NCBI RefSeq assembly: GCF_000829375.1
Contig: NZ_AP014624.1
Span: 3,286,001-3,350,000, forward strand
Source of the DNA: Chryseobacterium sp. StRB126
GTDB taxonomy: Bacteria; Bacteroidota; Bacteroidia; Flavobacteriales; Weeksellaceae
Reading direction: 5' to 3'
Length of the DNA stretch: 64,000 nt
Made by a program: the position numbers and the translations under genes
Shown: positions 43,463 to 55,949 of the stretch, piece after piece
Layout of the letters: every line of letters starts with the position of its first letter
Numbering within the stretch: the first letter of the stretch is position 1
Notes under the pieces: generated by a model
Told to the model about the DNA's origin: nothing
Seen by the model: the letters and a program-made list of their open reading frames with translations, nothing else
Database searches by the model: none

Positions 43463-44176
43463 ATGACAAGATCATTAGGAATCAGGATTGCTAAGGTAAT
43501 CGCTGTGTTTTCTGTTTTTATTTTCAGTATTCTGATGCTGAAAACAATTTCTCAATATACCTCTTTTGATAAAACAGTAGGTTTTCTTGCCTTTAAACAA
43601 CAGGTGGTTAATAATCCCTATTGGATGGCATTCTTTTATATCCATATCTTTTCAATAACACTTTGTCTTCTGGCTGGTTTAACGCAATTTTCACCACAAT
43701 TCTTAAGGGAAAACAGAGGTTTTCATAAAATAATCGGCCGGATTTACGTTTACAATATTCTTATGATCAACGTCCCTGCATGTTTCGTATTGGGATTGTT
43801 TTCGAATGGCGGATTGATAGGGATTACAGGATTTCTGATTCAGGATATCCTTTGGGCTTATTTTACAGTAGTTGCTGTACTTTCTATTAAAAAGGGAAAT
43901 ATTATCAGACATAAAAACTTTATGATTTTAAGCTATGCCGTGACAACAACGGCTATTACTTTTAGAATCATTAAGAATCTGTTTTATGATGAAAAATTTT
44001 ATGACTATGAGTTGTTCTACGGCATCAATGTATGGCTCGCTCTCATTATCAATCTTACGATCTCTTATTTTATTTTTAGTAAGAACCTGTCTGTACTATC
44101 TTTCAAACCTAACATTAGCAATGAAAATAGCAAAAGCAATAAAAAGGATGAGGAGAAACAAAACAATGAATATTAA
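43463..44176 (+). CDS. DUF2306 membrane protein
   Basis: This 237-residue protein has six or seven hydrophobic segments, for example VIAVFSVFIFSILML (13-27), FFYIHIFSITLCLLAGLTQF (57-76) and WLALIINLTISYFIF near 190. The histidines in YIHIF and GFHKIIGRIYVYN fit the DUF2306/DUF2231-like small integral membrane family. The C-terminal 20 residues are Lys/Asn-rich and low in complexity, and a possible antisense gene overlaps them. Role unknown. Confidence 0.75.
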   Translation: MTRSLGIRIAKVIAVFSVFIFSILMLKTISQYTSFDKTVGFLAFKQQVVNNPYWMAFFYIHIFSITLCLLAGLTQFSPQFLRENRGFHKIIGRIYVYNILMINVPACFVLGLFSNGGLIGITGFLIQDILWAYFTVVAVLSIKKGNIIRHKNFMILSYAVTTTAITFRIIKNLFYDEKFYDYELFYGINVWLALIINLTISYFIFSKNLSVLSFKPNISNENSKSNKKDEEKQNNEY

Positions 44177-44305
44177 AACATTAAACAATCCTTCATATTT
44201 ACTTTTTTGGGTCCATCTTTTAAAAAAACGCATTAACAGGTAAGATATACCCGCAAAAACAGCTAAGATAAAAATGAAATAAAGTAATTCCCAGTTCATA
44301 TTCAT
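44096..44305 (-). CDS. Possible small two-helix membrane protein
   Basis: This 69-residue frame has two strong hydrophobic helices (LLYFIFILAVFAGISYLLM and VLIFIVLFLLILFIAFAIF) separated by the basic loop RFFKRWTQKSKYEG, a plausible hairpin membrane protein. It overlaps the end of the DUF2306 gene by 81 bp on the other strand. The overlapped part of that gene is low-complexity, which makes either reading possible. I keep it as a tentative call. Confidence 0.35.
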   Translation of the reverse strand: MNMNWELLYFIFILAVFAGISYLLMRFFKRWTQKSKYEGLFNVLIFIVLFLLILFIAFAIFIANVRFER

Positions 44306-44577
44306 ATCATTATTTTATGTAAAACTACTATTTTAAAATTAAGAAACAATAAGGAATCTTAAATAGGCAAAACCTAAGATCCGGAAAAATAATCTGTTGG
44401 TTTCTATAACCCGGATCAGAATTGCATCAAGATAAGCAATGGGTAATTATGAATTTCAAATAAGTATTAACATATCATCTGAAGCAAAGCATTTACAATG
44501 TATTTTACTTTCATAAAGAAAATTCTTCTTACTGATAAACAAATATTAATATTTCACAACGATGTTATTTATTTTTT
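44306..44577. other. Intergenic region before the biosynthetic operon promoter
   Basis: AT-rich sequence with no gene, hairpin or repeat that I can support. It separates the hypothetical-gene cluster from the promoter at 44578-44608. Confidence 0.5.
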
Positions 44578-44608
44578 TTTGTCAATTGTTTTTAGTTTAG
44601 TATATTTG
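44578..44608 (+). promoter_or_regulatory. Consensus Bacteroidetes promoter of the polyketide-like operon
   Basis: TTTG (44578-44581), a 19-nt spacer and TATATTTG (44601-44608) match the TTTG-N19-TAnnTTTG consensus exactly. Transcription should begin near 44613-44616, leaving a leader of about 370 nt before the ACP start at 44983. Confidence 0.7.
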
Positions 44609-44982
44609 TACAACTAAAACCCACAAGATGAAATATGAAAAAAAACAATTCCCTCCATCTAATTCCCAAATAGATAGAGTTTATTAGCTTTAACCTTATT
44701 ATTAATTCAAAAAAGTTTTCAGTCTGAAATTATTCGTTAATTTTTTGATCAAAATTTATATGATAAAAGAGTGATGGATATAGTGTTTCTCTGAGACAAT
44801 ATACTTAAAAAATCATTTACGCTAAATTACTCACTATATTGTGATATAATTAATATCTGAAAAATCAAAAAGTAAATACAGCTTATAGTTTCTCAATAAA
44901 ATCATTGGTATAACATTTATACTGATCATTAGTTCTTATACAATAACACAAGAAACCATTATAATAATTAAAAATACAAATT
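44609..44982 (+). other. Long AT-rich 5' leader of the biosynthetic operon
   Basis: About 370 nt separate promoter and ACP gene, unusually long here. A 14-codon reading frame (44628-44672, MKYEKNNSLHLIPK) opens about 15 nt after the expected start of transcription and could be a leader peptide. I see no stable hairpin or known riboswitch, so control through this leader is only a possibility. Confidence 0.35.
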
Positions 44983-45231
44983 ATGGAAAGTCAAGAAAAA
45001 TTATTCAAAAAAGTTTACGAAATCCTTGCTGATATCACTGAATGTGATCCAAAAGAAATTCAGCCAAATACAAATCTTTTACATGATATGGGAATGACTT
45101 CCCTAATGGGACTTGAAGTCTTGGTAGAACTGGAAAGAAATTTTCAGGTTAGCCTTGATGAAGAGCTTTTGGCAAATATGACTACACCTAAAGATATTGT
45201 TACAGTATTAGAAGAAGAGTTGGCAAACTAA
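44983..45231 (+). CDS. Acyl carrier protein
   Basis: This 82-residue acidic four-helix carrier protein has its phosphopantetheine site in HDMGMTSLMGLEVL (Ser40 or so). The usual GxDSL reads GMTSL here, a variant typical of specialised ACPs rather than the fatty acid synthase AcpP. It is the first gene of the operon and should carry the growing chain for the ketosynthase pair at 48648-50919. A 96-nt gap follows before the flavoprotein gene. Confidence 0.88.
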   Translation: MESQEKLFKKVYEILADITECDPKEIQPNTNLLHDMGMTSLMGLEVLVELERNFQVSLDEELLANMTTPKDIVTVLEEELAN

Positions 45232-45327
45232 CTTCCTTACTTTTTTACCAATAGTATATTAAAATATGCAAAGGTAGGGATCGAACTATTTTATATTAAA
45301 ATCAACCTATTTAAACCAACACAAAGT

Positions 45328-46815
45328 ATGATTGACAATCTCAATGTCGATGATATGGTGATTGGAGCAGGCCTCTGTGGCTTAATGTATGGTCTTACCG
45401 CCACTACAGAGGGACGCTCTGTCGTCATTAGCGAAGCACATCATAAAGTAGGTGGGTATGCTACCAATTTTTACAGAAACAAAAGAAAATTTGTGTTTGA
45501 CTGCAGCCAGCACAAAGTGAGTGGTCTTAGAGAAAATGTAGGAAATCTATGGAATGCCCTCAGGAGATTGGAACTCCATACATTACTGGAAGAATTTCAT
45601 CTGCATGAAGAAATCGGAACGGTAGTTTATAGAGGCAATTTTATCACAATTCCTTCAGAACCAGATGAGATTAAGGAAACTCTTATGATGTATTTTCCGG
45701 ATGAAATATTGGGAATAGAACAACTATTCCAAGATATAGAATCACATGGATACCAGCATTATATGTTTTTCAGAAGACTGATGAATGAGTATACGATCAA
45801 CAGAGATATCTTGAAAGAAAGCAGAGGGTTGTCAAAAATAACAGCGCGGGAATATTTTGAAACCATTTTTAAAGGGAGTGATATTATTGAAGTACTCAGC
45901 CCTATTGCCATCTATTCCGGCTCTATTTCTAATGAAGTGAACGCATTCTATTTTCTTCATTGCCTGTATGCAATGTTTTATGGAGGACAAGCCTATGTAA
46001 AAGGAACAGGACAACAGCTCTCCAATATATTACTTAAAGAGTTTGTCAATCGTGGAGGCATTATATTAAAAAAGAATCCTGTCTATGAAATGGAAGATTG
46101 TAATGAATATATGCTGGTTAAAACACGGAAAAACATAATCAGGACACAAAATGTGATTGCAACCTGCCCTCCGGAAGATGTTTTGAAAATGTTGAAGAAA
46201 GAAGAATATACAAACAGCTTCCAAAATGTTATCGATAATTTCGAGGTGGGATGGGGACATTTTTGTGTGTATATTGTAATTTCGGTTGCTCCGGAAGAGG
46301 TTGATATATTTTCTCCTGAGTACCTTTTGGTATCAGATTCAGGAGATAACTTTACAAAAGAAGACTTTGAGAATGACAGGTATTATGATCTTTTCACTTT
46401 AAGTCTAAGTAATTATCACAGATTTGATCCAGCTGGTGGATATGTAATCCAGCTAGTCATGCTGGATCATGGCGACAGATGGTTTCATCTTTCAGAAGAT
46501 GAATATGCAGCCAGAAAACAAAAAATTCAGGATAAGTTTATAAAAAGGGCCCTTAAAATATTTCCAAAACTGGAAGGAAAATTAATTTATACAGAATCAT
46601 CAACCCCTAAAACAAATTATAAATTTACTCTTGCCACTAAAGGTTCTGCCTTTGCTTATAAAATGCTCCCAAAAACCAATTTAAGTCTGCTCAGTAATTT
46701 TCCCAATGACAAAATTAAGTTAGTCAGCACATGGGCAGGAGGTCCTGGCTATGAAACTGCAATGTGCTTCGGTTTTACTCAAGGTAAATTATTAAGTAAA
46801 AACACAAAAATATGA
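45328..46815 (+). CDS. FAD-dependent desaturase/isomerase, CrtI/retinol-saturase superfamily
   Basis: The protein has 495 residues. The N-terminal dinucleotide fold is DMVIGAGLCGLMYGL (9-23) with acidic SEAHHKVGGYATNFY at 36-50, as in phytoene desaturases, carotenoid isomerases and retinol saturases. The C-terminal GGPGYETAMCFGFTQG is the second FAD-binding part. It could desaturate, saturate or isomerise a polyene chain. The stop overlaps the next start by 4 nt (ATGA), so it is coupled to the diiron oxygenase. The substrate is not shown. Confidence 0.8.
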   Translation: MIDNLNVDDMVIGAGLCGLMYGLTATTEGRSVVISEAHHKVGGYATNFYRNKRKFVFDCSQHKVSGLRENVGNLWNALRRLELHTLLEEFHLHEEIGTVVYRGNFITIPSEPDEIKETLMMYFPDEILGIEQLFQDIESHGYQHYMFFRRLMNEYTINRDILKESRGLSKITAREYFETIFKGSDIIEVLSPIAIYSGSISNEVNAFYFLHCLYAMFYGGQAYVKGTGQQLSNILLKEFVNRGGIILKKNPVYEMEDCNEYMLVKTRKNIIRTQNVIATCPPEDVLKMLKKEEYTNSFQNVIDNFEVGWGHFCVYIVISVAPEEVDIFSPEYLLVSDSGDNFTKEDFENDRYYDLFTLSLSNYHRFDPAGGYVIQLVMLDHGDRWFHLSEDEYAARKQKIQDKFIKRALKIFPKLEGKLIYTESSTPKTNYKFTLATKGSAFAYKMLPKTNLSLLSNFPNDKIKLVSTWAGGPGYETAMCFGFTQGKLLSKNTKI

Positions 46816-47828
46816 ATCCGCTAAAGAAAAAAACACTCAGTCCAAAGTTTTCAGATCTGCTGGATAAACTTAATAAAGCATCTGAAAAAAAGCAAATGAG
46901 TCTGCTTCTGGACCATCCCTGGGATGAACCTACCGACAATGTATGGCTCAAGAAAAGAGAGAATATTTCCATCTATGGAACTCCGTATTACGATCTGGCA
47001 TCAGAAGAAGAAAGAAGACTTCTATCAGTATATGAAACCGGAGCTTGGTGGTATACCTTTATCGTATTTGAAAATCTGGTTTCTGAATATTATATGAAAA
47101 TCGTAAACCATGGTTCTCTGAAAAAGTTTCCGGAGGTAGTAAAATATATACATCATTTCTGCAAAGAAGAGATTGTACACGCCATGGTATTCCGAAAGGC
47201 CATGAATTACTTCAACATAGCCCCTTTTCCCGTTCCTTTAAATTTACGGGAAATCTACAGTCACAATGCATCCATGGCCGAATTCCCCTTAAAGGCAATT
47301 TATCTCACAATTCTAATAGAATGGCTTGCAGAAAATAATGCAATGGAAGACTGTAACAGTAAGGAAATTTCTAAACTTTCCCGGGCTGTAGCTGTAGAAC
47401 ACCATAAGGAGGAAGCAAGACATATAGAATGGGGAAAAAATATGATCCGGGAATTTATAGATGTTGTTCCTGAATTTTTACGTGAAGCTCAAGAGATTAC
47501 AGCTCCATTACTGAGAAGTATGTTGGATATGTCCATATCCAGCATAATGGTTTACGCCAGGGTTGGGTTCAAAGACAAGGCATTTAAAAACTATAAAGAA
47601 CTTATCCCTGCTGTCCTGAATTCTGAAAACAGAAAAAAAATTAATTCAAGAATAATGGCTCCTATGATGAGGTATTTTATAGAAATCGGAATCTGTAATC
47701 CTGAAAATATGGAAGTATGGAAAAAGAATGGTTTCGAAAAAGACGTTGAAGATGCTATCGCCTATTTTAAAAAGAAATCGACTACTGAAGGGGATATAGA
47801 CAATGTAATGGATAAAAATTATGATTAG
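46812..47828 (+). CDS. AurF-like diiron oxygenase
   Basis: This 338-residue helical protein has the ligand pattern of the AurF family: Glu87 (FEN), ExxH at Glu120/His123 (KEEIVHAM), Glu170 (LIEWLAEN) and HxxxExxH at His197/Glu201/His204 (EHHKEEARH). AurF and relatives N-oxygenate aminoarenes or amines; others hydroxylate carrier-bound substrates. Glu87 and Glu170 assignments are by spacing. It is coupled to the CrtI-like gene by a 4-nt overlap. It is the clearest sign that the product is oxidatively tailored, possibly at nitrogen, although no aminotransferase is in the operon. Confidence 0.8.
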   Translation: MNPLKKKTLSPKFSDLLDKLNKASEKKQMSLLLDHPWDEPTDNVWLKKRENISIYGTPYYDLASEEERRLLSVYETGAWWYTFIVFENLVSEYYMKIVNHGSLKKFPEVVKYIHHFCKEEIVHAMVFRKAMNYFNIAPFPVPLNLREIYSHNASMAEFPLKAIYLTILIEWLAENNAMEDCNSKEISKLSRAVAVEHHKEEARHIEWGKNMIREFIDVVPEFLREAQEITAPLLRSMLDMSISSIMVYARVGFKDKAFKNYKELIPAVLNSENRKKINSRIMAPMMRYFIEIGICNPENMEVWKKNGFEKDVEDAIAYFKKKSTTEGDIDNVMDKNYD

Positions 47829-47878
47829 ATATCATCAAAACTATTCACCCATTTATTTATTAACATCAAATTTTTGAT

Positions 47879-48634
47879 ATGCAGATTAATTTAGATAACA
47901 AACATTTCCTGGTAACTGGTGGCGGACGGGGAATAGGGAAAGCTATTGTCCAGCAGTTGCTTTCTTCAGGAGCATCCGTATCATTTACCTATAATCGTGG
48001 CCAGGAAACCGCAGAAAAATACCTACAGGAACTCTCAGCAGAATTTCCGGCTAAGATTGCATTATATCAGGCAGATATTCAAAATGAAGATCAGTCAAAG
48101 GCTTTAATAGAAACTATTGAAAAATCTTCATTAGGGCCATTGTTCGGACTTATTAATAATGCAGGGATTACTGCAGATGCGCCATTTTTCAGCATGACCC
48201 ATGATATGTGGAAAGAAGTGATTAATACTAATTTAAATGGAACTTACTTTCTTTCCAAAGCAGTCATAAAATCATTTATCCGAAAGAAAAATTCAAAAAT
48301 AATCAATATTTCATCCGTATCCGGAATACGTAGTGCTATAGGGCAGGCCAATTATGGAGCCTCCAAAGCAGCAATTATTTCGCTTACTAAAACACTCGCA
48401 TTAGAATTTGCCAAGTTTAATATGCAGGTGAATGCAGTTGCTCCCGGATTTATAGATACAGAAATGGTTTCTCAGATGAATGAACAGGACAAGAAAAAAA
48501 TAGATCAGATAATTCCCATGAAAAGAATGGGAATGCCTCAGGAAATTGCTGATATGGTAATTTTTCTCTGTTCTGAAAAAAGCAATTATATCACTGGCCA
48601 GACATTCGTCATTGATGGTGGACTGACCTTATAA
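47879..48634 (+). CDS. 3-oxoacyl-ACP reductase (KR), FabG-like
   Basis: This 251-residue short-chain dehydrogenase has the NADPH motif [11 protein letters not shown] at 14-24, NNAG near 90, catalytic Ser near 140 (ISSVSG) and YGASK near 153-157. It reduces the beta-keto group of an ACP-bound chain. The location between the oxygenase and the ketosynthase genes (13 nt before KS) marks it as a dedicated pathway enzyme rather than the housekeeping FabG. Confidence 0.9.
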
Positions 48635-48647
48635 AACCAATAAAAAG

Positions 48648-49892
48648 ATGAAAAGAGTTGTTATTACAGGAATGGGAATTGTAAGCCCGCTGGCTTGTAA
48701 AAAAGATACTTTTTGGGAAAAAATCCTCAAAGGAGATACCGGAGTCAGCGATCTTACCAAGCTGAATCCCTCAAATTATAAAGGGATAACAAGAGCCGCA
48801 GAAGTGCATCTTGAAAAAGAGTATAAAAATATGGAACTCATTGAGCATTTCCGTCCCTACGGAAAAGCTGTCACCTATGCTGCTGCGGCCATAGATATGG
48901 GATTAAAAGATGCAGGACTGGAACATAAGTTTACGCAAAAAAACAACTATGGAGTTATCCTGGGAACAACGAATGGGAACCAGGATATTGTAGAGCGTAT
49001 TGTAGATGAATGGGATCTTGGTATGGAACATGAAGAGCTCCCTTCACAAGCATCCGAAACCTTACACAAATTCAGGCCTGTGGAACTCAGTGCCAGCATT
49101 GCAAAGTACTATAATCTGGGTGGAACCAACATGGTAATACCTACAGCCTGCGCTGCCGGAAATTATGCTATAGGAACAGCATATTCTATGATTCAGGAAG
49201 GCCGCTCCCCTCTTATTATTGCCGGAGGTGCAGATCCTTTTACAAGATCATGTTATACCGTATTTTACAGGTTAGGTGCCATGTCTAAAAATGATTGTAA
49301 ACCTTTCGATCAGGATAGAACGGGAATGATTGTCGGAGAAGGTGCTGCCATTTTGATTATTGAAGAATTAGAACATGCTCTGGCCAGAGGAGCCAGGATT
49401 TATGGAGAAATTAAAGGATATGGACTGGCTTGTGATGCTTATGATCCTACAGCACCAGATCCTGAGGGTTCAGGAGCTACATTATCCATGACCAATGCCC
49501 TTGTTTCAGGCAATATTGACAAAAAAAACATAACCTATATCAGCGCTCACGGAACGGGTACGAAAGCAAATGATGCCCATGAAGTAAAAGCAATGAATAA
49601 TGTTTTTGGAGATGAGATAAACACTTTATATGTAAACGGAATAAAATCAATGCTGGGACATTGCATGGGAGCAGCAAGTGCTCTTGAGGCCGTAAGCGCA
49701 GTTTTATCACTATACAATCAGCACATTCCCAAAAACATAAATACGAAAAAAATTGATGAGTCTTTTAATATCAGCTTCCAGATACAGCCATCTGCGGAAA
49801 TAGAGCATCATGTAGAACATGTTCTAAGTAATTCTTTTGCCTTTGGCGGTAATATCTGCAGCGTAATATTCAGTAAATATGATGCAAACTAA
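48648..49892 (+). CDS. Beta-ketoacyl-ACP synthase, KS-alpha (FabF-like)
   Basis: This 414-residue condensing enzyme has a full catalytic triad: Cys168 in PTACAAGN, His301 in AHGTGTKANDAHE and His338 in LGHCMGAAS. It elongates ACP-bound acyl chains with malonyl units. The 3' end overlaps the next gene, a degenerate ketosynthase, by 14 nt. That arrangement is the hallmark of KS-alpha/KS-beta pairs in type II polyketide synthases. No acyltransferase is present, so malonyl-ACP would come from the cell's FabD. Confidence 0.92.
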   Translation: MKRVVITGMGIVSPLACKKDTFWEKILKGDTGVSDLTKLNPSNYKGITRAAEVHLEKEYKNMELIEHFRPYGKAVTYAAAAIDMGLKDAGLEHKFTQKNNYGVILGTTNGNQDIVERIVDEWDLGMEHEELPSQASETLHKFRPVELSASIAKYYNLGGTNMVIPTACAAGNYAIGTAYSMIQEGRSPLIIAGGADPFTRSCYTVFYRLGAMSKNDCKPFDQDRTGMIVGEGAAILIIEELEHALARGARIYGEIKGYGLACDAYDPTAPDPEGSGATLSMTNALVSGNIDKKNITYISAHGTGTKANDAHEVKAMNNVFGDEINTLYVNGIKSMLGHCMGAASALEAVSAVLSLYNQHIPKNINTKKIDESFNISFQIQPSAEIEHHVEHVLSNSFAFGGNICSVIFSKYDAN

Positions 49893-50919
49893 TTCAAAAA
49901 CCAATATTGTAATTTCTGCCATAGGCTTTAACAGTTCTCGTGGAACAGAAATAAATGAATTCCTTAACAATTCAGGGAATCTGACTCCTTCGTCCTTTAT
50001 TATTGAAGATCATGATCCTCAAAAATTTTTAAAACCTAAAGGTCAGCGCTTTCTAAACAAAGCCACATTGATTTACTGTAACACAGCATTTCAGTCTATC
50101 CACAACAGAGATTTAAGCCAATATATACAAGATACCCCAGAAAGGATCGGACTCTATGATGGAACAGAGCTATCTAATCTCGAAGACTGTTTTGTCTTTG
50201 ATTTGACAGCTAAAAATCAAGGTCCGGACAGGGTAAGCCCTATGAAAGCACCAAGTACAATAGCCAATGCAGCGGCAAGCCAAATGGCCATACAAACAGG
50301 AATTAAAGGTCCCAACTTCAGTGTATGTGCTGGAATGGCCGGAAGTCTCCAGGCATTAGATATTGCTTATCTCCATTTGAAACAGGGAATTATAGATTAT
50401 GGAGTAATCGCTTCTACAGAAGTACGGAATACCTATCAGAAAGCAATTCAAAAAAAACAACGAAACCAATCTCCGGAGTTGGGAATATCCATGATTCTGG
50501 AACGGCAGGAATCTTTAGAAAAAGATAACAGAAAACCTTTAGCCGGAATTAGAATGCTACATTCTGAAACCTATACCAACGATGCTGTTCCTTTTGAAAC
50601 CTATTTGTATGAAACCATATCCCCTCTTCTGGGGGTATATGATGTTGACACTATCATTGTCTCCGGAGGAGTCTCTGCCCTAAATGAGAATATATTTGAA
50701 TGCTTATTTAAAGAAAATGATTTTTCCATAAAAGTACTGTACCCGGAAAATGAATTAGGAGACTTGGATAATGCAGGAGGGATGTTGGGTATTGCCTATT
50801 CTATTTCAATATTCAATGGGCAAAATGCACATAAAACAGACAAAAAAAACATCCTTGTCTTATCAGTAGATCCATCAGGAAGTGTAATCTATACCATCAT
50901 AGAGAAAAATAATATATAG
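49879..50919 (+). CDS. Degenerate ketosynthase, chain-length-factor-like KS-beta
   Basis: The protein has 346 residues (ATG 49879, or 49882 one codon on). The thiolase fold is kept (TIANAAASQMAIQTGIKGP, FSVCAGMAGSLQALDIAY), and Cys150 aligns with the KS active cysteine. However, the two catalytic histidines are lost: the first region reads IIVSGGVSALNEN and the second GDLDNAGGMLGIAY. It is also about 70 residues shorter than KS-alpha. It should be a non-catalytic partner that shapes the chain-length cavity. The retained Cys is unusual, since most CLFs have Gln there. Confidence 0.75.
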   Translation: MMQTNSKTNIVISAIGFNSSRGTEINEFLNNSGNLTPSSFIIEDHDPQKFLKPKGQRFLNKATLIYCNTAFQSIHNRDLSQYIQDTPERIGLYDGTELSNLEDCFVFDLTAKNQGPDRVSPMKAPSTIANAAASQMAIQTGIKGPNFSVCAGMAGSLQALDIAYLHLKQGIIDYGVIASTEVRNTYQKAIQKKQRNQSPELGISMILERQESLEKDNRKPLAGIRMLHSETYTNDAVPFETYLYETISPLLGVYDVDTIIVSGGVSALNENIFECLFKENDFSIKVLYPENELGDLDNAGGMLGIAYSISIFNGQNAHKTDKKNILVLSVDPSGSVIYTIIEKNNI

Positions 50920-50920
50920 T

Positions 50921-51403
50921 ATGCAAACCATTTTAGAATCCTATCAAATCATTCAAATCTTGAAGTACCGGTATCCTTTTTTACTTATAGATAAAGTGAC
51001 AGAGTATACCAAAGGGGAAAAACTGAAAGCTATTAAGGCTGTTTCTATGGGAGAACCCTATTTTTCCGGGCATTTCCCAGACTTTCCGATCATGCCAGGG
51101 GTTCTCATTACCGAAGCGCTTGCCCAGGCATCCTCATTGATCACTGTTTTAGATGATTTGGACTGGAAAGCAGGTAATGGTATTCCTTCATCTGAACATT
51201 CATCAACAGGTGTATTGGGAAATGTTCAGATCAGTTTCTTAAAATCCGTATTCCCGGGAAATTTATTAGAATTGGAAGCCAGCATAGATTGGAAAAAAGG
51301 ATCAGCCAGTTCTGTGAATGTTAAAGCATCTGTAGAAGGTTCAGTATGTGCAAAAGGTAAGATAACGGTGATGTCTGTAGATAAAAATAAAATATTTTCT
51401 TAG
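50921..51403 (+). CDS. 3-hydroxyacyl-ACP dehydratase, FabZ-like
   Basis: This 160-residue hot-dog protein has YPFLLIDKVTEYTKGEKLKA near 19-38 and the active-site helix GHFPDFPIMPGVLITEALAQ near 57-76. The catalytic His is in SGHFP and the acidic partner in ITEALAQ. It removes water to make a trans-2 double bond on the ACP-bound chain. With KS, KR and no enoyl reductase in the operon, repeated cycles would leave conjugated double bonds, i.e. a polyene. Confidence 0.88.
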   Translation: MQTILESYQIIQILKYRYPFLLIDKVTEYTKGEKLKAIKAVSMGEPYFSGHFPDFPIMPGVLITEALAQASSLITVLDDLDWKAGNGIPSSEHSSTGVLGNVQISFLKSVFPGNLLELEASIDWKKGSASSVNVKASVEGSVCAKGKITVMSVDKNKIFS

Positions 51404-51405
51404 CA

Positions 51406-52134
51406 ATGAATAAACCTATCTTATTCTGTATCCCTTATGCAGGAGGATCATCCATGTCATTCTCAAATATAACAAGTCTGATTAATATTGAAGAACTGGA
51501 AATTAAATGTCTGGAACTTCCGGGAAGAGGGATACGACATCAAGAACCTCTCCTCTCTTCTCTGGATGAGGCAGCAGATGATCTTTATGCAAATGTAAAA
51601 AATAGTTTGGAATTTCCCCAGAGGCCTGTTATCATCTGGGGACACAGTATGGGTGCTATTCTGGCATTATTGATTTCTGCCAAACTATATCAGCATCAAT
51701 TCAATATCGTTGGATTATTGGTTTCCGGAATGAAAGCACCTACCCATCAGTCCTCTAATCACAGCCTGTCAGAAAAAGCTAAGAATAAATTATTATCCAG
51801 CCTTTTGCCGATAAAGCATGAACAGAATAAAGAGGCTCCTCTTTTTCAAAAGATTTACAAAAAAAGAATGGAAATCATGGAAAAAGATGTAGAAATATTA
51901 GAAAAATATCAGGCAAACAATTGGCTACATATCTCTGTAATCAATCCCATAGCAGTCATCATGGGCGAAGATGATGATCTATACCCTGATCACTCTTATT
52001 ATGGAAACTGGAAACTTCATACCTCAGGAAACACTGAATTGTTCACTATAAAAGGCAATCATTTTTTCCCGATGCAGCACCCGGAGGAAACCGCCAGGCT
52101 ACTGACTCAAATACTCACACAGATGTTAAATTAA
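51406..52134 (+). CDS. Type II thioesterase
   Basis: This 242-residue alpha/beta hydrolase of the RifR/GrsT family has an oxyanion-hole region FCIPYAGGSSMSF (7-19), nucleophile Ser81 in IIWGHSMGAIL, an Asp near 192 (GEDDDLYPD) and His near 222 (KGNHFFPMQHPEE). Such enzymes clear misprimed carriers or release the product. It begins 2 nt after the dehydratase stop, firmly in the operon. No type I release domain exists here, so it may be the chain-releasing enzyme. Confidence 0.88.
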   Translation: MNKPILFCIPYAGGSSMSFSNITSLINIEELEIKCLELPGRGIRHQEPLLSSLDEAADDLYANVKNSLEFPQRPVIIWGHSMGAILALLISAKLYQHQFNIVGLLVSGMKAPTHQSSNHSLSEKAKNKLLSSLLPIKHEQNKEAPLFQKIYKKRMEIMEKDVEILEKYQANNWLHISVINPIAVIMGEDDDLYPDHSYYGNWKLHTSGNTELFTIKGNHFFPMQHPEETARLLTQILTQMLN

Positions 52135-52164
52135 AATAATCGTTAACCCATAAAAAAACAAAAA

Positions 52165-53385
52165 ATGAAAGTAAAGAAATTATTATTCTTGCCAGCAATT
52201 GCCTTACTGAGTATAGCTTACTCATGTTCGGATGACAATATCACGCTTGAGCCCATTTCGGAAGCCAATGCTAAGATATCAGCTTTATCTGTATCCAGAA
52301 ATGGGTCATCCCTGGCTGCTTATTTTGGTGATAATATAGACTTCAACAATCTGCCCAATTATGCCAATCAAAGTATCCCAATGTACATATTTCGAAATAA
52401 TACTCCGTTTATTAATCGTATTACGGATGAAGGAGCTACATTAGGAAGGGTTTTATTTTATGATAAAAATCTTTCCACTAATAATACAGTCTCCTGTTCC
52501 AGCTGTCATAAACAGGAACTGGCCTTTGGAGACAATAATATTGCCAGCCAGGGAGTGAATGGAACAACAGGAAGACATTCCATGAGATTAATTAATGTAA
52601 GGTTTGCAGAAGAAGCAAGATTGTTCTGGGATAAAAGAGCCCCTTCTTTGGATGTCCAGACTACAGTGCCTATCAGAGATCATGTAGAGATGGGTTACAG
52701 CGGTCGGAATGGAGCTCCGTCATTTAATGACCTTATTACAAAACTTCAGGGGTTGGATTATTATAGAGAACTGTTCACAAGAGCATATGGCAGTCCGGAA
52801 ATCACTGAAGAAAAAATGCAGAAGGCATTAGCTCAGTTTGTGAGCAGTATTATCTCTTTTGATTCAAAGTATGATGAAGGAAGAACTATGATTGCATCAG
52901 ATTTTCTTGATTTTCCGAACTTCACTGCTGAGGAAAATTTAGGAAAAAAATTGTATATGGAATTTCCCGTTGCTGTTCGCGGAACCCGTGCAGGAGGTGG
53001 ATTAGGCTGTGCAAGCTGTCACTTTGCTCCAGAATTTGGAATGACAGCTTTGAGTGGTAACAATGGAGTTATTGACAAAATAGGCAGTACTGATATTGAT
53101 CTTACAATCACCAATTCACCTTCAATCCGTGATCTAGTGAATTTAAACGGGCAACCTCATGCTCCTATGATGCATTCTGCAGTATTTTCTACATTAGAAC
53201 AGGTCATAGACCATTACAACAATATTCCACAAGACCCCAGAAACAATCAACTGGATAATAATCTTCGTTTAAGAGGATTAAATGCTACACCTGAGGAAAA
53301 AAAGGCTGTGATTGCCTTTATGAAAACCCTCACTGGAAAAAATGTTTACAAAGACAAAAAATGGTCAAACCCTTTTATTAATTAA
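52165..53385 (+). CDS. Dihaem cytochrome c peroxidase, MauG/CcpA family
   Basis: This 406-residue exported protein has a signal segment with a lipobox-like end at Cys21 (SIAYSC). Haem sites are CSSCH (111-115) and CASCH (282-286). GRHSMRLINV, MGYSGRNG and MHSAVFSTLEQVIDHYN are family landmarks. CcpA enzymes reduce hydrogen peroxide in the periplasm; MauG-like ones oxidise protein or small-molecule substrates. It lies 30 nt after the thioesterase with no terminator between, so it is likely the last gene of the biosynthetic operon, an odd companion for a polyketide set. Confidence 0.85.
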   Translation: MKVKKLLFLPAIALLSIAYSCSDDNITLEPISEANAKISALSVSRNGSSLAAYFGDNIDFNNLPNYANQSIPMYIFRNNTPFINRITDEGATLGRVLFYDKNLSTNNTVSCSSCHKQELAFGDNNIASQGVNGTTGRHSMRLINVRFAEEARLFWDKRAPSLDVQTTVPIRDHVEMGYSGRNGAPSFNDLITKLQGLDYYRELFTRAYGSPEITEEKMQKALAQFVSSIISFDSKYDEGRTMIASDFLDFPNFTAEENLGKKLYMEFPVAVRGTRAGGGLGCASCHFAPEFGMTALSGNNGVIDKIGSTDIDLTITNSPSIRDLVNLNGQPHAPMMHSAVFSTLEQVIDHYNNIPQDPRNNQLDNNLRLRGLNATPEEKKAVIAFMKTLTGKNVYKDKKWSNPFIN

Positions 53386-53406
53386 TAGAAATACAAAAAG
53401 AATAAG

Positions 53407-53440
53407 AAAAGAGACTGTCTTTTGAGACCGTCTCTTTTAA
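53407..53440 (+). terminator. Terminator of the biosynthetic operon
   Basis: AAAAGAGAC (53407-53415) pairs with GTCTCTTTT (53430-53438): a 9-bp stem with A and T flanks. It ends the operon and may also serve the convergent WG-repeat gene. Confidence 0.7.
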
Positions 53441-53486
53441 AACAACAAGGAAAACAGAATCACAAAGTTTTTTTGAGAAAATACCA

Positions 53487-55949
53487 TTAGATATCCATAT
53501 CATTCTCCTCGCCAAACGCCTTCCAGTACTGATATTTTTCCGGGTCAGCAAAGCCCTGGTCTTCTTTATAAAAATATAAAAGTCTCCTCAAGGCTGTAGT
53601 ATAATAGCCGTGTTGCAGGGATTTCTCGTAGTGTTTGATTGCTTTTTTAGGGCTTATCTTTACCCCTAGTCCTTCATCATACATAATTCCGTAATAAATA
53701 TCGGAATAACTGCCCTGCGTATCTTTTTTCAAATAACGCTGAAGATTGTCATAATCATTTTTCTGATAATAGATTTCTGCAAATTTTTCATCATTATAAT
53801 AGAATTTCTTTTCTGCCTGTTTATAGTAGTCTAATGCAAGGTCATAATCCTGTAATACATATTCACCATAGAAGTAAAGAAGTCCAAGGTTTTGCATGGC
53901 CAAACCATCTCCTAATTCTGCAGATTTCCTGAAACATTTTAAAGCCTTTTTAATATCCTGAGGATATCCTACTCCGCTCTGATAATGATAACCCAGGTTA
54001 TTCCATGCAACAGCATGATTCTTAGAAGCAGCTTTTTCATACAGGGCAAGTCCTTTCTCCAGATCATTATATTCAGGATACTCATCATGAACATAAATAT
54101 ACCCAAGTTCCACCATCATATCAGTATTTCCACGCCTCACTCCTATTTCGTACAGCCTTACAGCTTCTTCAATTTTTCCTTCTTCAATGTATTCTTCAGC
54201 CCTCGACATAAGGGTTGCATCATCAAAATACTCCTCGTAGCCTGAACCTTTTTTCTCAGTCCATGCCTTATAAAAATCAAGAAAATACTCTTGATCTTTC
54301 CCACGAAGATTATGTCTTTTTTCATACAAAGCTCCCAGCTGGTTATCAGAAACCTGATGTAAAGCCCTTTGGGTGTCAAGAATAAACATTTCATTCCCTT
54401 TATACAGGCAAAGCATCTGTTCATTATAGTCTATTCCTTCACCAATATAGTCATAAACACGACTTTGAGTCTCTGTTTGCTGGTCAAAATAGAACATCCC
54501 GTCTGAAGTGGTCACACGGAAGATTTCTTCCCGGCAGGATTCTATTTTTTTATATTCTTTAGATGAAGGGAGCAACCAACGATCTTCAGCAGCATTATAC
54601 AAGCCCCAGCCGTTTTCATCAGACAACAGGAATACATTCTTCATAAACTGGGTAAACCAATCCCTGTGAATATTTTCAATGCTATGTTCTGTTAACCTGA
54701 ATTCACCGGATTTTATATCATAAATATGCCATTTCTTAGCTTTCTTGTAGGCAAAAGAAGTGTAATAATCATTCAGAATCATCACGGTGTCTACTTCAGT
54801 ATCCAAAAGACTTCCATCAGCTTTTATAATGCTGGTTTTTTTCTGAAATTTATTCGGTTTAACCCAATAGTATCCTTCCCCAATCTCACCCAATACATCT
54901 TCAGGGTGTTCACCTAGATAAACACCATCAAATGTGTAAAAGGCTTTTTTGGAGGTTCCTTCCAGCGAACGATACAGCAATCCTGAATAATTAAATTCAA
55001 AAGGCTCATCAAAACCTTCTTCAATAATAGGTTTATTAAATGCATCAATAAGGCGATACTTACCCTCTTTTTTAGCATTAAAAAGGTAGACATGCCTTAA
55101 CATTTCCAGTTCTTCATATTCACAAGGAATAACAATTTCCCCGGTTTCAATGGTAATCAACCCACATTTTTCACCGATTTCTATAATCCCATAATTCTTA
55201 TTGTCTATAAAAAGAGAATCATAAGCTTCTCCATAGACACATTCAATAAGGACCTTTCCATCATTTCTCAGGTATCCGTACTTTCCATTTTTTTGTGCTA
55301 CCGCAATTCCTTCTTCACTAAAGGCGAATATTTCCTCATAAATCGGTGGCGTTATGATATTTCCTTTTTTATCCTTCAGTCCCCAAAGACCATTGTCTTC
55401 AAAAGACTCCGAAATATCTTTATATAAATCTTCATTCCAGTAGCCAAGACCATAATCAATCCAGTCTGTTTCCAGCATTTCTAAAAAAGATTCATATCCG
55501 CTTCTGGCTAAGATCTCTTTTTCAAGCCAGCCCAGATTCTGTTTGGCCATAGCTTTATCATACAGCTTACTTTTTTCCTTGATTTCCAGCACCCAGTTTT
55601 TGGCCTGATCGGAATGTTTTTCTTCATTCATATTGAAAACATCCCATCCATTGATGACAAAGGTGTCATAAGGAAGATTATCCAACATCTCAAACATTTT
55701 GTTGACAGGCTCATAATACGCTTTTTTGTAAAGCAACTGATTATGTTCACCCAACAACTGGTAGAATGATTTCAGCCTTGCTACTCCATTGATCTTATCA
55801 AAGTACAGCAGCTTTCCTTTTGATCTTTGATCACAGGAGAATAAAGGAAGAAGCAATTCCGGGATCTCGTAATTCCACTCTCCCAGATAGTGAGAGTACT
55901 GGTCCCCTGTTTTTGAATCTACATTATATACGTAAAGACGATGTGCCAT
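53487..55949 (-). CDS. WG-repeat and Sel1-repeat protein
   Basis: This large cytosolic protein has 820 residues and no signal peptide. Residues about 185-560 carry WG/KWG beta-repeats (GLWGLKDKKGNIITPPIYEE, KNGKYGYLRNDGKVLIECVY, EKCGLITIETGEIVIPCEYE, NGWGLYNAAEDRWLL). Residues about 585-800 carry Sel1-type TPR repeats (AVAWNNLGYHYQSGVGYPQD, LAMQNLGLLYFYGEYV). Both parts mediate protein contacts; no catalytic motif is seen. It lies 18 nt after a TPR-rich gene on the same strand, so the two form a unit. Function unknown. Confidence 0.75.
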   Translation of the reverse strand: MAHRLYVYNVDSKTGDQYSHYLGEWNYEIPELLLPLFSCDQRSKGKLLYFDKINGVARLKSFYQLLGEHNQLLYKKAYYEPVNKMFEMLDNLPYDTFVINGWDVFNMNEEKHSDQAKNWVLEIKEKSKLYDKAMAKQNLGWLEKEILARSGYESFLEMLETDWIDYGLGYWNEDLYKDISESFEDNGLWGLKDKKGNIITPPIYEEIFAFSEEGIAVAQKNGKYGYLRNDGKVLIECVYGEAYDSLFIDNKNYGIIEIGEKCGLITIETGEIVIPCEYEELEMLRHVYLFNAKKEGKYRLIDAFNKPIIEEGFDEPFEFNYSGLLYRSLEGTSKKAFYTFDGVYLGEHPEDVLGEIGEGYYWVKPNKFQKKTSIIKADGSLLDTEVDTVMILNDYYTSFAYKKAKKWHIYDIKSGEFRLTEHSIENIHRDWFTQFMKNVFLLSDENGWGLYNAAEDRWLLPSSKEYKKIESCREEIFRVTTSDGMFYFDQQTETQSRVYDYIGEGIDYNEQMLCLYKGNEMFILDTQRALHQVSDNQLGALYEKRHNLRGKDQEYFLDFYKAWTEKKGSGYEEYFDDATLMSRAEEYIEEGKIEEAVRLYEIGVRRGNTDMMVELGYIYVHDEYPEYNDLEKGLALYEKAASKNHAVAWNNLGYHYQSGVGYPQDIKKALKCFRKSAELGDGLAMQNLGLLYFYGEYVLQDYDLALDYYKQAEKKFYYNDEKFAEIYYQKNDYDNLQRYLKKDTQGSYSDIYYGIMYDEGLGVKISPKKAIKHYEKSLQHGYYTTALRRLLYFYKEDQGFADPEKYQYWKAFGEENDMDI

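Follow-up and report, generated by a model that had tools for sequence, protein, structure and literature searches.

The operon in the window

This report concerns a nine-gene operon of Chryseobacterium sp. StRB126, located in a 64,000-nucleotide stretch of its genome (NZ_AP014624.1, positions 3,286,001 to 3,350,000). That whole stretch is called the window here, and positions refer to it unless another locus is named; the host genome is a single contig of 5.5 Mb. By the list of open reading frames, nine + strand genes lie between a promoter and a terminator hairpin, at 44578–53438; adjacent genes overlap by at most 14 bases or are at most 96 bases apart. Each of the nine proteins scores above the curated cut-off of a Pfam family. 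A sequence-only reading had placed nine same-strand genes here and named their contents, and the open reading frames, the Pfam families, and the catalytic motifs agree with it.

The first gene (44983..45231) encodes an acyl carrier protein (ACP; PF00550, 54.9 bits) in which Ser40 is located by motif pattern. It is followed by the genes for a CrtI-like flavoprotein of the flavin adenine dinucleotide (FAD) type (45328..46815; PF13450 and PF01593 above cut-off) and an AurF-like diiron oxygenase (46812..47828; PF11583, 86.1 bits). The ketoreductase (KR; 47879..48634, Y159/K163) is of the FabG type, scoring 241.6 bits against NCBIfam NF009466, the cut-off of which is 222. Its best Pfam model is PF13561, a generic short-chain dehydrogenase/reductase model described as enoyl-ACP reductase; FabG models fit the protein. 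Next come two ketosynthases (KSs). KS-alpha (48648..49892; PF00109, PF02801) has the triad C168/H301/H338 by pattern, whereas KS-beta (49879..50919; PF00109, 29.4 bits) is degenerate and chain-length-factor-like: by eye, a Met stands at the position of the KS-alpha Cys, and both His residues are gone. The last three genes encode a FabZ-like dehydratase (DH; 50921..51403, H51/E65; FabZ equivalog NF000582 of NCBIfam, 123.6 bits with a cut-off of 113), a type II thioesterase (TE; 51406..52134, S81/H219; PF00975, 91.6 bits), and a MauG/MbnH-like dihaem protein (52165..53385; PF03150, 151.3 bits) with two CxxCH motifs and, by eye, a lipoprotein-like N-terminus. Thus, KS-alpha, a degenerate KS-beta, KR, DH, and ACP are all present alongside oxidative tailoring genes, which is the reducing type II polyketide synthase (PKS)-like set that the sequence-only reading had described.

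What the nine genes do not include narrows the choice of type. Pfam and NCBIfam searches of them found no enoyl reductase and, as had been claimed, no ammonia lyase, DarA/DarB, or acyltransferase, and the absence of the latter three rejects the aryl-polyene, flexirubin, and dialkylresorcinol types. (The host genome does encode an aromatic amino acid lyase, at the separate locus L043.) Pfam finds no homologue of PqsA-E among the nine. A cispentacin/coronafacic type is likewise rejected: the NCBIfam models AmcB, AmcE, and AmcF give 21.6, 60.4, and 230.8 bits where 80, 140, and 325 are needed, and no AmcH ligase is found among the nine genes.

The promoter, TTTG-N19-TATATTTG, occupies 44578..44608 on the + strand and is of the Bacteroidota form. 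A count of the pattern is unremarkable (4 in the window, 3.64 expected). Its position is more telling. Leader alignment and pattern search show it at the corresponding site in five of six clusters of this kind, called short clusters below, the leader of the sixth (L048) being unrelated. A sigma-70 reading of the promoter was rejected, as that scan was uninformative, listing 58 sites in the region where 43 are expected. The leader between promoter and ACP gene, 44609–44982, is 374 bases long, and those of four other short loci measure 310–365 bases. A leader peptide seen by eye soon after the promoter was rejected since it is unconserved in the leader alignment, and Rfam lists no known RNA element in 44100–53600 at E values up to 1. 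At the other end, the terminator hairpin at 53407..53438 (+) has a folding energy of -15.3 kcal/mol and a z score of -2.87; a simple terminator scan, which found 7 sites with 7.6 expected, did not list it. Both signals had been proposed from the letters of the window.

Long clusters and the origin of the operon

A search with KS-beta led to a second copy at another place in the host genome, with 68% identity. This copy belongs to a long cluster at C1:2229.8–2247.2 kb, the gene order of which is PqsA-like ligase, PqsB-like, PqsC-like, ACP, CrtI, AurF; PqsD-like ketoacyl-ACP synthase III, PqsE-like metallo-hydrolase, FAD monooxygenase, KR, KS-alpha, KS-beta, DH; and TE, TrpE, TrpG, DUF3995, MauG. 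From ACP through DH, the seven proteins shared with the window operon are 67–84% identical and stand in the same order, an order found in the long clusters as a group. MauG is 64% identical and TE 44%; that TE is the most divergent gene between the two copies is in line with a changed release step. The extra genes of the long cluster form three blocks: before ACP, between AurF and KR, and between TE and MauG. Hence, the window operon differs from the long clusters in having no PqsA-E-like genes, no FAD monooxygenase, and no TrpE/TrpG, and, DUF3995 excepted, the missing genes are of the types expected for making a quinolone.

The Pqs-like assignments rest on matches to solved structures and known enzymes. 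The PqsA-like ligase best matches the anthranilate-CoA ligase 4wv3 (1.1e-154), followed by benzoate-CoA ligases; a further anthranilate--CoA ligase, 5oe3, is eighth in the list (1.6e-92). The PqsB, PqsC, and PqsE homologues match those enzymes ahead of other relatives: PqsC at 8.2e-98 with the first FabH at 6.2e-45, PqsB at 1.1e-27 with the next match at 5.3e-16, and PqsE at 5.9e-73. The PqsD-like protein is assigned at the level of the FabH family only. C127 and H266 are invariant in seven PqsC-like rows and by homology would be the Cys-129/His-269 pair of PqsC (PMC4807248). The motif patterns left the PqsD Asn motif unmatched and missed PqsC-like motifs in some distant rows. The TrpE of the long cluster is an extra one; elsewhere, the host genome encodes a TrpE with 39% identity to it and a weaker match with 29%.

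The set of clusters was assembled by scanning named genomes with an AurF alignment, which gave 14 loci. To these were added the window, its own-genome paralogue, and one cluster each from genomes G025, G159, and G176 and from a plasmid of Photobacterium sp. GJ3; L041, L076, and L077 duplicate L051, L053, and L052, respectively, and were kept out of trees. In all, 20 distinct clusters were read, 6 short and 14 long. Every short cluster is from Chryseobacterium. The long ones span Bacteroidota, one Polyangiaceae metagenome-assembled genome (MAG; Myxococcota), and the Photobacterium plasmid (Pseudomonadota). Within Chryseobacterium and Flavobacterium, they occur in the window's own genome, C. lathyri, C. 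jejuense, C. pennae, C. panacisoli, C. phosphatilyticum, and F. hercynium; the others come from Arcicella, Hymenobacter, Bizionia, the Polyangiaceae MAG, Photobacterium sp. GJ3, G159, and G176.

Gene presence was scored in 19 of the clusters by BLAST at E 1e-5 over 60% of the reference length, and in the last one separately. ACP, CrtI, AurF, KR, KS-alpha, KS-beta, and DH are found in 20/20 clusters. All six short loci have the complete nine-gene set, so a lack of conservation, which would have counted against the sequence-only reading, is not what is seen. PqsA-, PqsD-, and PqsE-like genes are present in each of the 14 long clusters, PqsB- and PqsC-like genes in 13, and TrpE was seen in 8 within the stretches read. 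The Polyangiaceae MAG cluster (L059 5893–17995) has PqsA-, PqsD-, and PqsE-like genes, a flavin reductase, ACP, CrtI, and AurF; PqsB and PqsC were not found in it, and therefore the final condensation there must differ.

Trees indicate the direction of change. The main tree, built from seven concatenated proteins (17 rows, LG+C20, 2082 columns, with L059 and L051 left out), joins the six short clusters as one clade (100/100) that lies inside the long ones (100/99). The clade joins the main group of Chryseobacterium long clusters, while the long clusters of C. phosphatilyticum and F. hercynium branch outside, and the Arcicella, Hymenobacter, and Bizionia clusters form the root. Because the short clusters nest as one clade within the long ones, the most likely origin of the window operon is a long cluster that lost its quinolone-making genes in one event. 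Altogether, we consider it probable that this loss turned a larger PKS-alkylquinolone hybrid into a module that stands by itself, with a reducing, type II PKS-like acyl-building set and two oxidoreductases that tailor the chain. The sequence-only reading had thus recognized the chain-building core; that the operon is half of such a hybrid escaped it, the other half being invisible in the window.

Loss of genes could also mean decay, i.e., that the short cluster is a functionless remnant of a quinolone cluster, and the absent quinolone genes are what such a remnant would show. This explanation is already contradicted. The frames are intact, promoter and gene order are kept across species, and the ratio of nonsynonymous to synonymous rates (dN/dS) is 0.03–0.09 for all nine genes in comparison with the C. 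rhizosphaerae orthologues, with dS values of 0.6–1.7 that are, hence, partly saturated. It follows that the operon is under purifying selection, and a remnant is extremely improbable. With the low dN/dS and the nine-gene set in all short loci, the window operon is real, beyond chance.

Several observations concern the surroundings of the clusters. By eye, upstream neighbours are common to five of the six short loci. The short cluster of C. sp. PMSZPI differs from these five in lying just downstream of a tRNA-Asp gene (L048 7637–7711); a separate mobilisation of this cluster is possible. Upstream of the window operon, with several unrelated genes intervening, is an O-methyltransferase gene (PF00891; 37707–38732, - strand), and three further short clusters (L046, L047, and L049) have, by eye, a look-alike on their upstream side. 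Further away, the segment 4165–28473 resembles by eye an integrated conjugative element, with ParA-like, relaxase-like, TraG-like, and topoisomerase-like proteins in the list of open reading frames. Among long clusters, those of Arcicella, Bizionia, and Photobacterium encode a small protein between AurF and PqsD. The Arcicella protein (L055 10998–11351) is SCP2-like by Pfam, and the Bizionia (L058 10973–11314) and Photobacterium (L078 13939–14265) proteins look alike by eye; a carrier of a lipid substrate is a possible role. Tandem runs of alike genes of 181–342 aa lie near long clusters; the host genome has eight such genes and G005 has seven (L044 7550–16139, - strand, and L045 1938–9570, + strand, by reading of open frames). 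Three of the own-genome genes, those tested, encode terpene synthase family 2 proteins.

A proposed role for the operon

The proposal starts from the ketosynthases. In a tree of 11 of the KS-alphas, from which the misread frames L007, L012, and L022 were left out, the KS-alphas form their own clade (99/99), separate from that of FabF (98/96), and the three short-cluster rows group at 96/96. A housekeeping FabF identity, named beforehand as the outcome that would count against the sequence-only reading, is thus rejected. Deeper joins are less firm. That of KS-alpha with 6kxd_A, the sole highly reducing type II PKS reference in the tree, has 67/32, and the joins among anammox KS, 6kxd_A, and KS-alpha have bootstrap values of 61–67%, with long branches flagged. 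Searches of solved structures pair KS-alpha with 6kxd_A at 5.9e-70 and KS-beta with 6kxd_B at 8.2e-5; 6kxd is the ishigamide KS/chain-length factor (CLF), Iga11-Iga12.

From family knowledge, KS-alpha/KS-beta would extend an ACP-bound chain with malonyl units, the malonyl being loaded in trans, and KR and DH would reduce and dehydrate each added unit. As an enoyl reductase is absent from the operon, the chain would remain a conjugated polyene. The CrtI-like flavoprotein may then isomerise or further dehydrogenate the ACP-bound chain, as comparison suggests, and the AurF-like enzyme may add oxygen to it. In the long clusters, homology predicts that PqsA/D/E-like enzymes convert anthranilate to 2-aminobenzoylacetate and that a PqsBC-like enzyme joins the chain to this acceptor, giving a 2-substituted 4-quinolone. 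Without acceptor machinery, the TE of the short cluster might set the chain free in acid form. Oxidation of this acid outside the cytoplasm, by the dihaem lipoprotein, may follow and is the weakest step. An oxidised polyene acid is our best guess for the product.

CrtI and AurF are retained in all six short clusters, after the ACP gene, and both have a dN/dS of 0.04 for the measured pair, the window and C. rhizosphaerae. Because both are kept, and strongly selected, in clusters that have no quinolone genes, their substrate in short and long clusters alike is most likely the chain on the ACP and not the quinolone nitrogen; for the same reason, a role for AurF solely in N-oxygenating the quinolone was rejected. 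Family and fold could nevertheless suggest a different nitrogen chemistry, i.e., that the AurF-like enzyme N-oxygenates an amine from outside the operon to give a nitrogen product. The protein belongs to PF11583 and has the ligand set of an AurF-type diiron oxygenase: E87, E120, H123, E170, H197, E201, and H204, the candidate ligands, are invariant across 26 aligned proteins. Its model matches the fold of CmlI, and CmlI and AurF are among the top fold matches, so fold and candidate ligand pattern are common to the arylamine N-oxygenases. Identity to CmlI and AurF in these structure alignments is only 12–13%, however, no amine-forming gene is among the nine and no amine substrate is evident for the operon, and the enzyme persists in short clusters devoid of anthranilate genes. 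N-oxygenation is, on balance, very unlikely. Foldseek gave the AurF-like model no match under E 0.001, and phmmer of the protein against the PDB returned nothing real.

The fate of the chain can also be drawn differently, with the short operon feeding it in trans to an acceptor encoded elsewhere, either the PqsBC of a long cluster or another ligase, nonribosomal peptide synthetase (NRPS), or transferase. Of eight genomes checked, two contain one cluster of each type, namely the window's and that of C. phosphatilyticum, and giant NRPS-like frames are encoded by the host genome. Four genomes have the short cluster alone. In these, the best PqsC relative is 33% identical, and the best-scoring PqsA relatives reach 26–29%; it follows that the short operon must work without PQS-type (Pseudomonas quinolone signal) partners there. 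The TE sitting in the operon speaks against delivery in trans as well, and we regard this alternative as rather unlikely. As to the giants, one open frame at G000 C1:600519–642320 exceeds 14,000 codons and has many matches to the AMP-binding query, and similar frames occur in G025, G059, and G061.

Several points weigh against the proposed stand-alone module and its chemistry. An enoyl reductase could act in trans, and the description of the best Pfam model for KR fits such an activity. The reactions of AurF and CrtI are read from fold and motif only. Ribonucleotide reductase R2 proteins match the AurF-like model about as well as CmlI does. The CrtI-like structure model is of low confidence, with a mean predicted local distance difference test score (pLDDT) of 70.8, and NCBIfam carotenoid equivalogs score far below cut-off (CrtD 84.8 where 549.7 is needed, isomerase 58.7 where 586.9 is needed). 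The protein is distantly related to phytoene dehydrogenase and gamma-carotene desaturase, and its sequence makes it only distant kin of the CrtI/CrtD desaturase-isomerases. In a simpler-model tree of 19 rows that includes the distant Polyangiaceae row, the nesting is unchanged and the short clade has only 67%; outgroup branches are long. Finally, MauG, present in all short clusters and in the own-genome long cluster, is missing from the C. phosphatilyticum long cluster (the genome's single copy is at the short cluster), and F. hercynium has no copy of comparable similarity. MauG may therefore be an accessory to the clusters, and its role is the least certain of the operon.

Comparison with known systems

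In the open-licence PMC literature, as represented by titles, the starts of abstracts, and passages, we found no description of either cluster type or of a PKS paired with PQS-type genes, nor did these searches turn up a match to a characterised cluster, in keeping with the sequence-only reading. On gene content, the parent clusters would combine reducing type II PKS-like with PQS-type quinolone chemistry. The title of a 1978 report names a quinoline, G1499-2, from Cytophaga johnsonii, which might be linked to these clusters; in passages of an alkylquinolone review (PMC7731028), neither 'Cytophaga' nor 'Flavobacteri' occurs.

Highly reducing type II PKSs, those of ishigamide and the cinnamoyl lipids, share KS/CLF, KR, DH, and ACP with the window operon. 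Two features of this class are found here: a Cys-His-His KS-alpha with a partner KS that has no catalytic residues, and KR, DH, and ACP in a cluster that has no enoyl reductase. Cinnamoyl clusters reportedly use a dedicated cis-trans isomerase, in contrast to the CrtI-like flavoprotein and diiron enzyme of the window operon. In the actinobacterial cinnamoyl pathways, it is proposed that isomerisation of the polyene is followed by a 6-pi ring closure and by desaturation (PMC6510318). By analogy, a fate of this type is possible for the operon's chain.

A second likeness is to the ladderane lipid candidates of anammox bacteria. The best solved relatives of KS-alpha and KS-beta are a single pair, 9s5h, the KS-alpha letters of which match anammox proteins; no paper on PDB 9S5H was found in the open-licence PMC literature. 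Kuenenia genes kuste3603–3608 group ACP, FabZ, KS, a degenerate KS, and a CrtI-like protein (PMC4790861), as does the window operon, and differ from it in having a radical S-adenosylmethionine (SAM) enzyme where the operon has a diiron AurF-like enzyme. This likeness would fit an operon whose product is not a secreted metabolite but an uncommon fatty acid for membranes or storage, resembling the lipids, polyunsaturated or ladderane, that anammox bacteria have been proposed to make. Such a role is difficult to reconcile with the sporadic occurrence of the gene set. An AurF relative of the operon kind is present in 12 of 173 genomes of the genus (14 places in all) and, with at most five candidates scored per genome, in 1 of 395 genomes of an even phylum sample, that one being the window's own. 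Nor does it sit well with the absence of a radical SAM gene from the nine, the quinolone genes of the parent clusters, or a TE that suggests release, and we hold a fatty acid role to be unlikely. A bolder idea, quite unlikely in our judgment, is that the ACP/FabZ/KS-alpha/degenerate KS-beta/CrtI core, shared with the ladderane candidates, is one old polyene-folding module, and that in the clusters read here AurF replaces radical SAM chemistry and drives an O2-dependent ring closure of an ACP-bound polyene. The resulting cyclic acyl group would be quinolone-attached in long clusters and released by the window operon; if so, culturable aerobes would open a chemistry so far tied to anammox bacteria. 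The clusters also provide relatives, in aerobic bacteria, of the set of KS, degenerate KS, and CrtI that has been proposed to make ladderane lipids, a pathway long open.

Returning to the hybrid origin that we favor, the missing half resembles the Pseudomonas PQS pathway. Homologues of all five PqsABCDE enzymes occur in long clusters, PqsD as a FabH-family member only. In Pseudomonas, the acyl donor of PqsBC is octanoyl-CoA (PMC4807248); in the long clusters, the chain would come from a dedicated type II PKS that has an ACP of its own, so that PQS-type chemistry would be coupled to a PKS and its oxidative tailoring, and the window operon is without any Pqs gene. Chryseobacterium offers a natural experiment in which one lineage retained the chain module and lost the quinolone genes, separating the halves and pointing CrtI and AurF at the acyl chain. 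Aurachin biosynthesis in Stigmatella resembles the long clusters in that a single quinolone pathway reportedly activates anthranilate and uses components of a type II PKS. The arrangement differs: in aurachin biosynthesis, anthranilate reportedly primes the type II PKS, whereas here the PKS would make the other half, the side chain.

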